The notes under the pieces were generated by a model that saw nothing but the letters and a program-made list of their open reading frames with translations, had not been told where the DNA came from and made no database searches. Both the position numbers and the translations under genes were made by a program. This document shows positions 8,122 to 11,984 of a stretch of DNA of 18,339 bases, one piece after another (the first letter of the stretch is position 1; each line of letters begins with the position of its first letter). The DNA comes from Candidatus Bathyarchaeota archaeon (GTDB lineage Archaea > Thermoproteota > Bathyarchaeia > Bathyarchaeales > SOJC01): positions 1 to 18,339 of the forward strand of contig DAOWHM010000091.1 of the NCBI GenBank assembly GCA_030641425.1, written 5' to 3'.

Positions 8122-9345
8122 ATGCAAACACCATCTACCCTCATGATCAAAGAGAACTTTCGCCACTATTATAAGATAGATGCGGAAATCGCTCGGGTCC
8201 CCTCCTCAATCCGACAACGTGAATTTGGATTTGTCCTATCTGACCAAAAAACTATGCTCCGTCATAAGAGGTTCGAGAATGCAGCCTCTCTCAGAGACTA
8301 CATCGTGAACATAATACCATCCGATGTATATTACTCATCTGCGTATTATGAATCTCCTGAAGCCAACATGGATAGAAAAGGCTGGCTCGGAGCGGATCTA
8401 ATCTTTGATATTGATGCAGATCATATCCCAACCCCATGTGGCAAGGTTCATGACAGATGGACTTGTAGTAGTTGCGGGTTTTCAGGAAAAGGGCCTTCTC
8501 CTGAGAAATGCCCGATCTGCGAAAAGGGGAAATTTGGCACTAGGAAATGGATGTGTGATAGTTGTCTGGAATCCGCTAAGAAAGAAACAAGCAAGCTTTT
8601 AGATATGTTGCTGAACGATTTTGGGTTTTCAGAGAAGAAAGTACGAGTATTTTTCAGCGGAAATCGTGGTTATCACATTCATGTTGAAGCTGACAGCGTT
8701 TGTCTTTTGGATTCCATGGCTCGAAAAGAGGTTGTAGACTATGTAATCGGGTTAGGTTTGGAGCCAAAATTGCACGGTTTAATAGAAAAGAACAGAATCG
8801 TATTTGGGAACCAAGTAGATAGAAAAGGCTGGCGAAGACGTATTGCCAGCGGAATAATGGAGTTCCTAGAGGCTTCACCTGAAGAGGTGGCGGCTGTTGG
8901 TTTAAGGAAAAAAAACATCAGAAACTTGATGCAGAGAAGGAGTTTGCTTCGTGAAAATCTAGAGAAGGCTGGCTGGCTGGATACATCGGGTGTTGGACCT
9001 AGGAACTGGTTGAAGATAATTCGCTGGGTTGTGGAGCAAAAAGCGTCTAAGATTGACACCGTTGTCACTACAGATATTCATCGATTGATTCGGTTACCTC
9101 AGAGTTTACATGGGAAAACAGGATTTGCCAAAGTGGAAACTCCAATTGGAAGTCTTAGCGAATTCGATCCTTTAAAGGAAGCGATAGTCTTCAGAGAAGG
9201 GGAGGTTAAGGTTAACATTGTTGAAGCTCCAAAATTCCGCGTAGGAAACAAATATTACGGTCCCTTCACAAAAGTTTCCCAAGAACTACCTACTGCAGCC
9301 GCTATATTTCTCATCTGCAGAGGAGTAGCTCAAGTGAGGGAATAG
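8122..9345 (+). CDS. priS: DNA primase small (catalytic) subunit PriS
   Basis: The 407-residue protein matches archaeo-eukaryotic primase catalytic subunits. DRKGWLGADLIFDIDADH (84-101) contains the first catalytic aspartates (D96, D98). A zinc-binding module follows, with C106, H110, C115 and C118, and two further CxxC pairs at 130/133 and 145/148. FSGNRGYHIHV (178-188) is the nucleotide-binding SGxRGxH motif, and TTDIHRLIRLPQSLHGKTG (316-334) carries the probable third catalytic Asp (D318). With PriL it makes primers for replication. The extended cysteine-rich insert is longer than in Pyrococcus-type enzymes. The ATG at 8122 is chosen because the TATA-like element fits it; an in-frame ATG at 8143 is an alternative. 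The GINS gene follows two bases after the stop, an archaeal pairing that links primase to the replicative helicase. Confidence 0.97.
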   Translation: MQTPSTLMIKENFRHYYKIDAEIARVPSSIRQREFGFVLSDQKTMLRHKRFENAASLRDYIVNIIPSDVYYSSAYYESPEANMDRKGWLGADLIFDIDADHIPTPCGKVHDRWTCSSCGFSGKGPSPEKCPICEKGKFGTRKWMCDSCLESAKKETSKLLDMLLNDFGFSEKKVRVFFSGNRGYHIHVEADSVCLLDSMARKEVVDYVIGLGLEPKLHGLIEKNRIVFGNQVDRKGWRRRIASGIMEFLEASPEEVAAVGLRKKNIRNLMQRRSLLRENLEKAGWLDTSGVGPRNWLKIIRWVVEQKASKIDTVVTTDIHRLIRLPQSLHGKTGFAKVETPIGSLSEFDPLKEAIVFREGEVKVNIVEAPKFRVGNKYYGPFTKVSQELPTAAAIFLICRGVAQVRE

Positions 9346-9347
9346 CG

Positions 9348-9908
9348 ATGTACGATTTACTGTACAACTCGTGGTTAAAAGAGAAAGAGAATACAGAGTT
9401 GCAGACCCTCCCAAAAGACTTCTACACCAAATTAACTGAATATGTAGTCGAGATCCGACAAAAGGGACGAATGCTAGATCGAAACTCACCCAAAGCAAAA
9501 CTCATTTCCCAAGAACTAACAAGGGTCAAACGGTTGATGGAGGAACTCGCCAAACTTCGCTTCAAAAAGATTATTGAATTGGCAAGCTCTACGGATTCCT
9601 TCGGAATGGACCCACTAACACCTGAAGAAGAAAAAGCGGTAAGTGAGTTAAAGACTACGTTTGAAAGTTTCCAATCCTTTCTAAAAGGAGCCTTACGAGG
9701 GAAAAAACCAAAGGTTGAAAATAGCAACGCCTCCACAAATCCCACCAAGAAATTGCTACTACGATTCCTACAAGAAGTTCCAGCTATAATCGGCTCAGAT
9801 CTGAAAGTTTATGGTCCCTTCTCAATTGAAGATGTCGCTACACTTCCAATTGAGAATGCTAAGGTCTTAATGAAGCATGGTGTAGCCACCAAAGTGGAAA
9901 TTGCATAA
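9348..9908 (+). CDS. Archaeal GINS complex subunit (Gins51/Gins15-type)
   Basis: At 186 residues this has the length and A-then-B domain order of archaeal Gins51. The helical A domain starts LLYNSWLKEKENTELQTLP (4-22), includes the LAKLRFKKI core (68-76) and ends with LTPEEEKAV (90-98). The small beta-rich B domain at about 136-186 contains VYGPFSIEDVATLP (154-167) and a final hydrophobic strand, as in GINS proteins. GINS joins MCM and GAN/RecJ-like nuclease in the archaeal CMG helicase. A GAGGG site lies seven bases before the ATG, inside the end of priS, so the two genes are almost certainly co-transcribed and co-translated. An NPTKK-containing linker (about 118-135) is poorly conserved in character. 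Assignment is from motif pattern and context together. Confidence 0.88.
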   Translation: MYDLLYNSWLKEKENTELQTLPKDFYTKLTEYVVEIRQKGRMLDRNSPKAKLISQELTRVKRLMEELAKLRFKKIIELASSTDSFGMDPLTPEEEKAVSELKTTFESFQSFLKGALRGKKPKVENSNASTNPTKKLLLRFLQEVPAIIGSDLKVYGPFSIEDVATLPIENAKVLMKHGVATKVEIA

Positions 9909-10015: not shown

Positions 10016-10255
10016 TTGACTAAATTTAAAGCATCGAGAACTCTAGATTGCCTCGGACTTTTCTGTCCCGAACCTGTTTTCAGAACCAGAATGGAACTAA
10101 ATAAACTTGAAATCGGCGAAACGTTGGAAGTCTGGGCGGACGACCCAGCAGCCGAGAAAGACATTAAAAGTTTGACGAAGCGTTTAGGCCATGAAATCTT
10201 GGAAATAAGAAAAGAGAAAGGCAAACTTCACTTCTTGATTAAGAAAGGACGATGA
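10016..10255 (+). CDS. TusA / SirA-family sulfur carrier-like protein
   Basis: This 79-residue protein has the TusA fold signature LDCLGLFCPEPVFRTRMEL (10-28), with the family's persulfide-carrying Cys as C17 in the CPEP motif. It continues with LEIGETLEVWADDPAAEKDI and a closing beta strand. TusA-like proteins receive sulfane sulfur on this Cys and pass it to partner proteins; in bacteria the donor is IscS. The start is TTG, with GGGAG six bases upstream and no better ATG before the motif. Its stop overlaps the next start as ATGA, so it is translationally coupled to the IscS-type gene. A second Cys (C12) five residues before the active one could take part in disulfide or relay chemistry. The adjacent desulfurase-like protein appears unable to bind PLP in the normal way, so this carrier may be a genuine sulfur source here; that is inference. 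Confidence 0.85.
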   Translation: MTKFKASRTLDCLGLFCPEPVFRTRMELNKLEIGETLEVWADDPAAEKDIKSLTKRLGHEILEIRKEKGKLHFLIKKGR

Positions 10256-11442
10256 GGAATATAATGAGAAAGGTATACTTAGATCACACAGCAGGCATGC
10301 CTGTAGATCCTCAAGTCATCGAAGCCATGAAACCTTACTTCACACAGCTCTACAGTAACCCATCTTCGTTACATTCCTCTGCGCAAGAAGTGAGGAAGGG
10401 ATTTCAAAATGCTCGCAAGAAAGTCGCCATGCTAGTTGGTGCAAAAAGCGAGGAGATATTCTTTACTTCATGTGCTACGGAAAGCAATAATTGGGCAATA
10501 AGAGGGGTAGCCAGCCGAAATAGAGGTCGAGGAAAACATATCATAACTACAGCAATCGAGCATATGTCAGTGATGAACGTCTGCAAGTACTTGATGAAGC
10601 AAGGCTATAGAGTTTCGTTCTTACCTGTCGATAACACAGGCCTAATAGATCTTGAGGTACTGCAGAAGGAATTGGCGGATAACACGATTCTTGTTTCCGT
10701 TATGTACGCAAACGGAGAAATTGGAACGATTGAACCCATAAAAGAGATTAGCGAAGTTGTACACAGCAAGGATACCTACTTGCACGTAGACATGACAGCA
10801 GCTATGGGACAAGTTTCCGCAGACGTAATGAAAGAAGGCATAGACTTATTGACCTTATCTTCAAACGACATGTACGGACCGAAAGGAGTAGGTGCTCTCT
10901 ACATAAAAAAAGGAACACGTTTAGACCCCCTCATCTTCGGAGGCGGACAGGAGCGAGGACTAAGGTCAGGTACAGAAAACTTGCCAGGTATCGCAGGAAT
11001 GGGAAAAGCAGCGGAGATCGCCAAAGCAGAAGTAGGGAGGGAGGGTTCAAGATTATCCAAACTTCGAGACAAGTTCATCAATGGAATACTGGAGACTATC
11101 CCCCACTCGTTCCTAAATGGCCACCCGACTAGACGATTACCAAATAACGTCGCAGTTCGATTCAGCTTTGTTGAAGGAGAATCTATGCTCCTAAACTTGG
11201 ACATAGCTGGCGTCGCAGCCTCATCAGGATCAGCGTGCACCGCCAAGACGTTGGAGCCCTCCCACGTGTTGCGCGCCATAGGATTGAAACACGAAGAAGC
11301 CCACGGTTCACTACTATTCACGCTTGGTAAACAAAATGATGAAGAAAATGTAAATTATGTACTGGGGTTACTACCCGATATAGTTAAAAGATTGAGAGCC
11401 ATGTCACCATTAACACCAAGAGAGTTGAGGGAAAATGTATAG
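10252..11442 (+). CDS. iscS: IscS/NifS-type cysteine desulfurase homologue lacking the PLP lysine
   Basis: The 396-residue protein aligns by motif over the full length of IscS: YLDHTAGMPVDP (9-20), FFTSCATESNNWAIRG (70-85), H104 in AIEHMSV, MYANGEIGTIEP (151-162), HVD (178-180), YGPKGVGALY (208-217), GGGQERGLRSGTEN (230-243) and the Cys loop SSGSACTAKTLEPSHVL (324-340) with catalytic C329. The Schiff-base lysine expected in SGHK-type motifs is replaced: the sequence reads SSNDMYGPKG, with N205 and D206. The PLP-contacting Gln after HVD is Ala (A183). So it keeps fold, IscU-docking region and sulfur-carrying Cys but not the normal PLP anchor. From memory, Archaeoglobus fulgidus IscS has the same Lys-to-Asp change and needs that residue restored for normal activity. 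The ATG at 10252 overlaps the TusA stop; an ATG at 10264 with GAGG before it is also possible. Confidence 0.93.
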   Translation: MRNIMRKVYLDHTAGMPVDPQVIEAMKPYFTQLYSNPSSLHSSAQEVRKGFQNARKKVAMLVGAKSEEIFFTSCATESNNWAIRGVASRNRGRGKHIITTAIEHMSVMNVCKYLMKQGYRVSFLPVDNTGLIDLEVLQKELADNTILVSVMYANGEIGTIEPIKEISEVVHSKDTYLHVDMTAAMGQVSADVMKEGIDLLTLSSNDMYGPKGVGALYIKKGTRLDPLIFGGGQERGLRSGTENLPGIAGMGKAAEIAKAEVGREGSRLSKLRDKFINGILETIPHSFLNGHPTRRLPNNVAVRFSFVEGESMLLNLDIAGVAASSGSACTAKTLEPSHVLRAIGLKHEEAHGSLLFTLGKQNDEENVNYVLGLLPDIVKRLRAMSPLTPRELRENV

Positions 11443-11818
11443 CGAAAAGGTGATGGACCATTTCAGAAACCCTCGAAATGTAGGAGAAATTAAAGACCCT
11501 GACGGAGTTGGCACAGTGGGAAACCCCGTCTGCGGCGACCTAATGACGATACACATCAAAGTCAAAGACAACACCATCTCAGAAATAAAATTCAAAACCT
11601 TTGGCTGCGGAGCAGCACTCGCAACCAGCAGCATGATAACCGAGTTAGCAAAAGGTAAGAGTTTAGAAGACGCCCTGAAGATCACCAGAAAGGACGTGGC
11701 AGATAATTTGGGTGGTCTCCCACCTATAAAGATGCATTGCTCAAACCTAGCTGCTGACGCTCTGCATGAAGCAGTAAAGGACTACCAGAAAAAGCAGGAG
11801 GAAAATCGAAATGGTTAA
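11435..11818 (+). CDS. iscU: Iron-sulfur cluster scaffold protein IscU
   Basis: At 127 residues this is a complete IscU/NifU-N scaffold. The three cluster-ligand cysteines are present: C33 in GNPVCGD (with the conserved Asp, D35), C58 in TFGCGAALATSS, and C102 in PPIKMHCSNLAADAL, preceded by H101. These assemble [2Fe-2S] clusters from iron and sulfur and hand them to apoproteins in the cytoplasm. The gene overlaps the IscS-type gene by eight bases and is preceded by GAGGG in the end of that gene; its own end overlaps the next small gene by eight bases. The usual FGCGSA is FGCGAA, a mild change. An intact scaffold beside a PLP-lysine-less IscS argues that the pair still functions, with sulfur arriving in another form. 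Confidence 0.96.
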   Translation: MYSEKVMDHFRNPRNVGEIKDPDGVGTVGNPVCGDLMTIHIKVKDNTISEIKFKTFGCGAALATSSMITELAKGKSLEDALKITRKDVADNLGGLPPIKMHCSNLAADALHEAVKDYQKKQEENRNG

Positions 11819-11984
11819 ATCCATACTTTGCAGCCAGTGCAAAGTCAAGATAGCAGGAGATGAATGCCAATTCATGAGTTATAAACGTGTCATCAACGGT
11901 GAAGAATATGCCTTCTGTTGCCAGAAATGCGTCGAGAAGTTCAAAGCTCAAAAGACAGCTATCTCTCGCCCCAAGAAGCAGTAA
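11811..11984 (+). CDS. 57-residue TRASH-like cysteine-rich metal-binding protein
   Basis: A small gene begins at an ATG overlapping the end of iscU by eight bases and is preceded by a strong AGGAGG nine bases upstream (11796-11801). The 57-residue product has cysteines at 7, 10, 19, 36, 37 and 40 in the pattern CSQC, later C, then FCCQKCVEKF, resembling TRASH/MYM-type treble-clef zinc or metal-binding modules (CxxC ... FCxxCxxxF). The C-terminus is basic (SRPKKQ). No other domain exists. Strong initiation signal, tight overlap and clean metal-ligand spacing support a real gene. Its place last in the TusA-IscS-IscU run suggests metal sensing, iron delivery or redox control for Fe-S assembly; none of this is shown. 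It ends 67 bases before the convergent HemK gene. Confidence 0.8.
   Translation: MVKSILCSQCKVKIAGDECQFMSYKRVINGEEYAFCCQKCVEKFKAQKTAISRPKKQ

Follow-up and report, generated by a model that had tools for sequence, protein, structure and literature searches.

How sulfur enters the Fe-S clusters of anaerobic archaea is an open problem where the IscS on the scaffold side cannot use cysteine. A locus of Candidatus Bathyarchaeota archaeon (assembly GCA_030641425.1) raises this question, as a first-pass annotation had read an Asp there in place of the PLP-binding Lys of cysteine desulfurases. We followed up this reading in the 18,339-nucleotide stretch of contig DAOWHM010000091.1 that carries the gene (hereafter the window), in related loci and in whole genomes.

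The operon and the active site of its IscS

The iscS-like gene (10252..11442, forward strand) encodes a 396-residue IscS/NifS-type protein with the class V aminotransferase fold (PF00266, 246 bits; cut-off 21.5), which scores under the equivalog cut-offs of both NifS (TIGR03402, 516.7 vs 530.75) and IscS (TIGR02006, 416.3 vs 643.2). It belongs to a forward-strand operon in which every gene overlaps its successor. The first gene, tusA (10016..10255; PF01206, 86.3 bits, cut-off 28.6), encodes a sulfurtransferase or sulfur carrier and runs from an inferred TTG start at 10016 to a TGA stop at 10255 that overlaps the ATG of iscS by 4 bp; its product carries the CPxP cysteine of TusA carriers, as CPEP, and reaches 67.5 bits against the NCBIfam TusA equivalog NF001423, under the cut-off of 78. 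On the other side, the Fe-S scaffold gene iscU (11435..11818; PF01592, 171 bits; TIGR03419 NifU_clost, 209.5 bits, cut-off 187.9) overlaps iscS by 8 bp, and alignment with E. coli IscU places the Cys-Gly-Asp motif, the second Cys, the His-Cys pair and the LPPIK motif in its product. The last gene (11811..11984) overlaps iscU by another 8 bp and encodes a Cys-rich, zinc-ribbon/YHS-like protein of 57 residues, with a weak PF04945 match (22.5 bits, cut-off 30.3), no match in an NCBIfam search and five Cys columns conserved in all 33 relatives found; it is possibly a metal-binding protein. Farther upstream on the same strand lie ORFs 8122-9345 and 9348-9908, whose products we take to resemble the two subunits, small and large, of an archaeal DNA primase. 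The annotated picture of a full-length gene, no pseudogene, in an overlapping operon with iscU was borne out by the open frame and by the conservation of its residues among homologues, while the operon proved larger than described, with tusA overlapping upstream and the Cys-rich gene downstream.

We aligned the window IscS with E. coli K-12 IscS using MAFFT (43% identity over 388 positions). Asn205-Asp206 (codons AAC GAC, 10864..10869) lies opposite His205-Lys206, whose Lys forms the Schiff base, and Ala183 (10798..10800) lies opposite the PLP-side Gln183; A. fulgidus chain 4eb5 also carries Ala, Asn and Asp at 183, 205 and 206, so the reading of these three positions agrees with both comparisons. 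The sulfur-carrying loop cysteine is retained (C329, 11236..11238, opposite E. coli C328), as are His104 and Asp180, again as annotated. Two further losses had gone unremarked. Gly155 (10714..10716) stands opposite E. coli N155, a presumed substrate-carboxylate residue, and Leu355 (11314..11316) stands opposite E. coli R354. In SspA, an Arg and an Asn are described as binding the carboxyl group of cysteine, and both are stated to be conserved in IscS (PMC7188994); in our own reading, R354 and N155 would be their E. coli counterparts. The protein thus keeps the loop Cys, His104 and Asp180 of a desulfurase and lacks Lys206 and His205, Gln183, Arg354 and Asn155. E. coli IscS is reported to lose activity in the H104Q, D180G, Q183E, K206A and C328S mutants and to retain it in R354K (PMC9978102). 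By these mutant data, the window protein is without two residues proven essential, together with most of the substrate clamp, and it is very probably not a cysteine desulfurase.

The best match among solved chains was A. fulgidus IscS2 (PDB 4eb5, 4eb7 and 4hvk; variant chain 4r5f), at 474 bits, which has A183, N205, D206, the Cys loop and an IscU partner in common with the window. The inactivity of A. fulgidus IscS, which the first-pass annotation had mentioned, is likewise found in the literature, where the protein is described as sharing the Lys-to-Asp change and having no desulfurase activity (PMC7585200). The same source describes M. acetivorans IscS1, of the IscS1-IscU1 pair, as lacking the catalytic Lys and suggests that it acts like A. 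fulgidus IscS; its likeness to the window IscS is by this description, the missing Lys in both. The window is therefore not merely a second example of such an IscS, as had been proposed: M. acetivorans IscS1 was already known, our comparison took in 54 distinct proteins with the Asn-Asp (ND) motif, and the motif occurs in 61 of 250 genomes sampled from the class. The window also has the adjacent IscS and IscU genes of the minimal iron-sulfur (MIS) system, an archaeal MisS-MisU pair (PMC12442378); MisS, however, is classed there among cysteine desulfurases, whereas the window IscS is disarmed and its operon adds tusA and the Cys-rich gene.

A clade of IscS proteins, most of them without the catalytic lysine

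The residue counts come from the best 120 of 8000 scored homologues, which were not picked by the ND motif and include the window's own protein. Asn205, Ala183 and the loop Cys are present in 120/120 and Asp206 in 118/120, the remaining two having one Val and one Glu. The window copy is thus not a sequencing error, and, judged from these homologues, the Lys-to-Asp change is real and old. The other collections were selected partly or wholly by the ND motif: 60 relatives (55 ND, 4 HK, that is His-Lys, and 1 QH, Gln-His), the 250 genomes of the class (ND motif in 61, an HK-[Y/F]GPKG motif in 45, both in 21) and 196 genomes of the phylum of Methanoperedens, of which only four carry ND, so that the motif is rare there.

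To find what else distinguishes these proteins, we set the 54 distinct ND sequences against a canonical group of 34 (HK and Gln183, E. coli included) in a single alignment. Of the positions with 97% or higher constancy in the canonical group, just five retain their residue in under half of the ND proteins: 12, 183, 205, 206 and 354 (E. coli numbering). Apart from the motif and position 183, T12 is therefore lost as well, and R354 is replaced in 52/54 ND rows, against its retention in 34/34 canonical and 6/6 SufS-like rows. N155 is kept in 9/54 ND rows (lost in 45) and in 32/34 canonical ones. The rest of the pocket is held: T76, H104 and the loop Cys in all 54 ND rows, D180 in 53 and S203 in 52. 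L380, R381 and S384 are invariant across the ND set, in a stretch through which E. coli IscS is described as contacting IscU (PMC2854127).

We computed a tree without the motif columns. The 54 ND proteins, three HK rows with Asp183 and two YK (Tyr-Lys) rows form one clade of 59 rows apart from canonical IscS (SH-aLRT 98), and a thinned tree with six columns omitted, which kept 75 of 101 rows after omission of 7 long-branch rows and 19 near-copies, gave the same clade (SH-aLRT 97). ND takes two changes on the unconstrained trees; a constraint that kept the ND rows together passed the AU test (p 0.706, log-likelihood 12.9 higher), and the Lys may have been lost a single time. Rows dropped from trees and counts were fragments and shifted or over-long frames (L030, L064, L057, L062, L045, L047, L046), copies of the window (L002, L065), rows under 360 or over 460 residues, those with a gap at the motif (for example L041) and those identical over the last 300 residues. 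The rows represent Bathyarchaeia, Methanoperedens, an A. fulgidus-like genome, Thermoplasmata, two bacterial bins (L053, L054) and single bins named Hadesarchaea, Njordarchaeum and others. The window IscS, which has A183, N205, D206 and the loop Cys of the A. fulgidus type, thus belongs to a large and predominantly archaeal clade that takes in a few bacterial bins and also contains the A. fulgidus-like proteins L133 and L137.

Several atypical proteins turned up alongside. The three HK rows (L066, L067, L068) retain His104 and His-Lys together with Asp183 and Leu354, another atypical branch within the clade. IscS-like proteins with Pro104, Asp183 and Tyr-Lys at 205-206 (L103, L104, L105, L107, L131, L132) adjoin iscU and in several cases a SufS-like gene. 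A bacterial IscS-like protein (L060, 2940-4127) has Gln-His at 205-206 and Met183. Thermoplasmata-type ND proteins (L046, L048, L049, L051) carry an SSPC loop in place of GSAC, with tusA and dsrE upstream; we looked for iscU downstream of these four and found none.

Sulfur-carrier neighbours and the desulfurases and scaffolds of each genome

Upstream tusA and/or dsrE genes were found at 50/51 ND loci (tusA at 41, dsrE at 30) and at 0/32 canonical loci, counting rows with at least 700 bp of upstream sequence, the canonical rows being mostly pattern hits with flanks of about 900 bp. The difference (Fisher p 3e-22) is descriptive only since the rows are related. The sole ND exception, L009, has unrelated genes upstream. 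In many loci DsrE (PF02635) lies between TusA and IscS, and across the fetched loci the CPxP cysteine was retained in 49/49 TusA matches and the DsrE cysteine in 42/42. Downstream, iscU is present in 44/52 ND rows (absent in 8) compared with 7/33 canonical rows. Among the other groups, tusA or dsrE lies upstream in 3/3 HK rows with Asp183, 0/2 YK rows and 0/6 SufS-like rows. The three HK rows are dsrE-tusA-iscS-iscU operons whose IscS keeps both Lys and His, and we therefore rejected the idea that the linkage signals loss of the Lys; it goes with the wider clade, excluding the two YK rows, which have iscU without tusA or dsrE.

Reductase-like genes form a second kind of neighbour. Methanoperedens loci encode a fusion of IscU with a pyridine-nucleotide-disulfide-reductase-like (TrxR-like) domain, found by Pfam in L044 and by profile in nine rows. 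L053 and L135 have IscU and reductase-like matches within one frame, and L031, L034 and L062 have a separate reductase-like gene downstream. The A. fulgidus-like genome (G389) encodes L137, nearly identical to 4eb5 by eye, and the second copy L133, with dsrE upstream of both and tusA upstream of one. The window IscS is about 56% identical to L137 and differs in having tusA directly upstream without dsrE, Gly155 rather than Asn and the Cys-rich gene downstream. In genome G259 an ND iscS (L015/L121) has tusA upstream, and a genome-wide search for IscU and SufB/D gave no match.

A survey for a second, canonical desulfurase had been suggested, and one was found in the window's own genome (1.0 Mb assembly, 145 contigs, 79.5% complete): contig 34 encodes a canonical-type IscS that has Q183, HK and the Arg. 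For this genome, the idea that no other desulfurase exists is thereby rejected. The gene for this second IscS (L001, on contig 34) has no in-frame ATG, GTG or TTG before the conserved N-terminus, and the same holds at L096. Both loci have an ATT (L001 1494-1496, L096 901-903) at a fitting position after a GGAG-type ribosome site, where the protein likely starts. At least 14 of the 23 genomes behind the ND loci contain a broader HK motif, by a pattern that misses some codons. A search for ND genomes without another desulfurase covered 12 entries with no HK motif found earlier, which reduced by identical coordinates to nine distinct genomes. Five of these have another desulfurase-type gene, with HK read in it; two have a strong SufS-like match (Lys not read in the alignment) and a YK-type gene, one has a SufS-like gene containing unreadable bases, and one (G048, rated 95% complete, with SufB/D present) has only a distant PF00266 protein.

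The single TusA found in the window's genome is that of the operon, and a DsrE search of this 79.5% complete assembly found none. A SufB/D search of the genome also found none, with a model that matched in 14/14 control genomes. SufB/D was likewise found in 0/9 genomes of the window's family, including one rated 100% complete and three single-contig assemblies, and in 3/18 distinct genomes examined overall (21 entries, 3 duplicates). In six of the nine family genomes a single IscU was found, encoded next to the ND IscS; of the remaining genomes, two have two each and one has three. PF10609 (the Mrp/ApbC group) gave long matches in G151, G066 and, at weak strength, the window's genome, and short ones only in G138, G180 and G200, which leaves room for scaffolds beyond IscU and SufB. 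Three of these points go beyond the first-pass annotation: that tusA overlaps iscS, that the residues for the substrate carboxylate are lost, and that related genomes lack detectable SufB/D.

Readings of the sulfur route

The reading that we prefer, tentatively and at a little under even weight, is that of a pseudo-desulfurase to which IscU docks and which passes on or ligates sulfur supplied by TusA or DsrE. TusA, or elsewhere DsrE and TusA, would deliver persulfide sulfur to an IscS dimer that would no longer form persulfide from cysteine and would serve as the dock for IscU, with Cys329 accepting or ligating the delivered sulfur during [2Fe-2S] cluster build-up. The sulfur might come from cysteine by way of the separate canonical IscS, or from polysulfide, and the TrxR-like domain, whether fused to IscU or encoded nearby, probably reduces the persulfide. 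We infer which way the sulfur flows, what donates it and what the Cys-rich and reductase-like proteins do. Studied DsrE/TusA relays, which combine PF02635 and PF01206 proteins with retained cysteines as the ND loci do, belong to sulfur-oxidising or tRNA-thiolation pathways, and we know of none that donates to IscU.

Several findings argue for a relay: the loss of K206, H205, Q183, R354 and N155 alongside the retention of T76, H104, D180 and the loop Cys; the tusA/dsrE linkage, the tusA-iscS overlap, the retained carrier cysteines and the position of the genome's only TusA; the described inactivity of the A. fulgidus homologue (PMC7585200); the single operon IscU in 6/9 family genomes, with SufB/D in 0/9; and the TrxR-like domain fused to IscU in L044. 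Against it stand the Lys-keeping operons L066-L068, the YK rows with iscU and no tusA or dsrE, the lack of a DsrE match in the window's genome, the 8/52 ND operons without iscU, the activity of E. coli R354K (PMC9978102), and the retained cofactor pocket, through which PLP or PMP may still play some part. E. coli TusA, moreover, is an acceptor: IscS there has IscU and TusA partners of the same families, is active and donates sulfur to TusA (PMC2854127). With Lys, His, Gln, Arg and Asn lost, sulfur at the window locus would have to flow in the opposite direction. Because TusA and IscU are reported not to bind E. coli IscS together (PMC2854127), their use of IscS would be sequential.

The main rival, which we consider rather unlikely, is a ligand-donor scaffold fed by free sulfide from its surroundings, in which IscU would dock on IscS, the IscS Cys would serve as a ligand of the forming cluster and TusA would have its role elsewhere. 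This is the published reading for A. fulgidus IscS (PMC7585200). It is consistent with the IscU D35A complex, in which three IscU cysteines and Cys321 of IscS are described as holding the cluster (PMC9769115), and with M. maripaludis, which lacks SufS and is said to use sulfide (PMC12442378). It leaves unexplained, however, the tusA/dsrE linkage at 50/51 ND loci and the TrxR-like domains, which are suited to persulfide reduction. The gene neighbours would favour persulfide carriers over sulfide as the form in which sulfur arrives.

Alternatively, TusA could be an acceptor or an unrelated neighbour, part of a general grouping of sulfur genes, and be charged by the canonical IscS for tRNA thiolation. 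TusA does accept sulfur in E. coli (PMC2854127), the window's genome has a canonical IscS, and L066-L068 combine tusA and dsrE with a Lys-bearing IscS. We nevertheless judge it improbable, as canonical loci lack upstream tusA and dsrE (0/32), the linkage tracks the atypical clade, and tusA and iscS overlap in the window.

A changed enzyme, whose retained pocket would hold PMP, or PLP with no Schiff base, for a different reaction, would account for T76 and H104 in 54/54, D180 in 53/54 and S203 in 52/54 ND rows. Recombinant A. fulgidus IscS has reportedly been isolated with PMP. The substrate-carboxylate residues are lost, however, the partners are sulfur carriers and a scaffold, and to our knowledge no such reaction is known, which makes this reading very improbable. 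A decaying pseudogene or a sequencing error is rejected outright by a frame that stays open within overlapping genes and by the same residues in 118-120 of the best 120 of 8000 scored homologues.

Already known are the Lys-to-Asp change and inactivity in A. fulgidus and the missing Lys in M. acetivorans IscS1, as described in PMC7585200. Added here are the carboxylate-clamp loss, the clade, the tusA/dsrE linkage, the scaffold counts in the window's family and the canonical second IscS. We found no report of the linkage, or of an ND IscS in Bathyarchaeota, in the open-access literature, which is weak evidence with subscription papers mostly outside that coverage.

The annotation 'cysteine desulfurase' is probably wrong for the whole ND group, and the A. 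fulgidus complex serves as a model of cluster assembly despite its inactive IscS. The tusA/dsrE linkage points to a candidate sulfur donor and brings the question within reach of experiments on as few as three or four small recombinant proteins. For the window's family, it is possible, though we regard it as somewhat doubtful, that the main, and in some genomes perhaps the sole, IscU/SufB-type scaffold works with an IscS inert towards cysteine, with a canonical IscS or an inorganic source charging TusA or DsrE with persulfide and the disarmed IscS providing the dock and ligand at which this sulfur reaches IscU; sulfur would then pass from TusA to IscS-IscU, opposite to the direction in E. coli.
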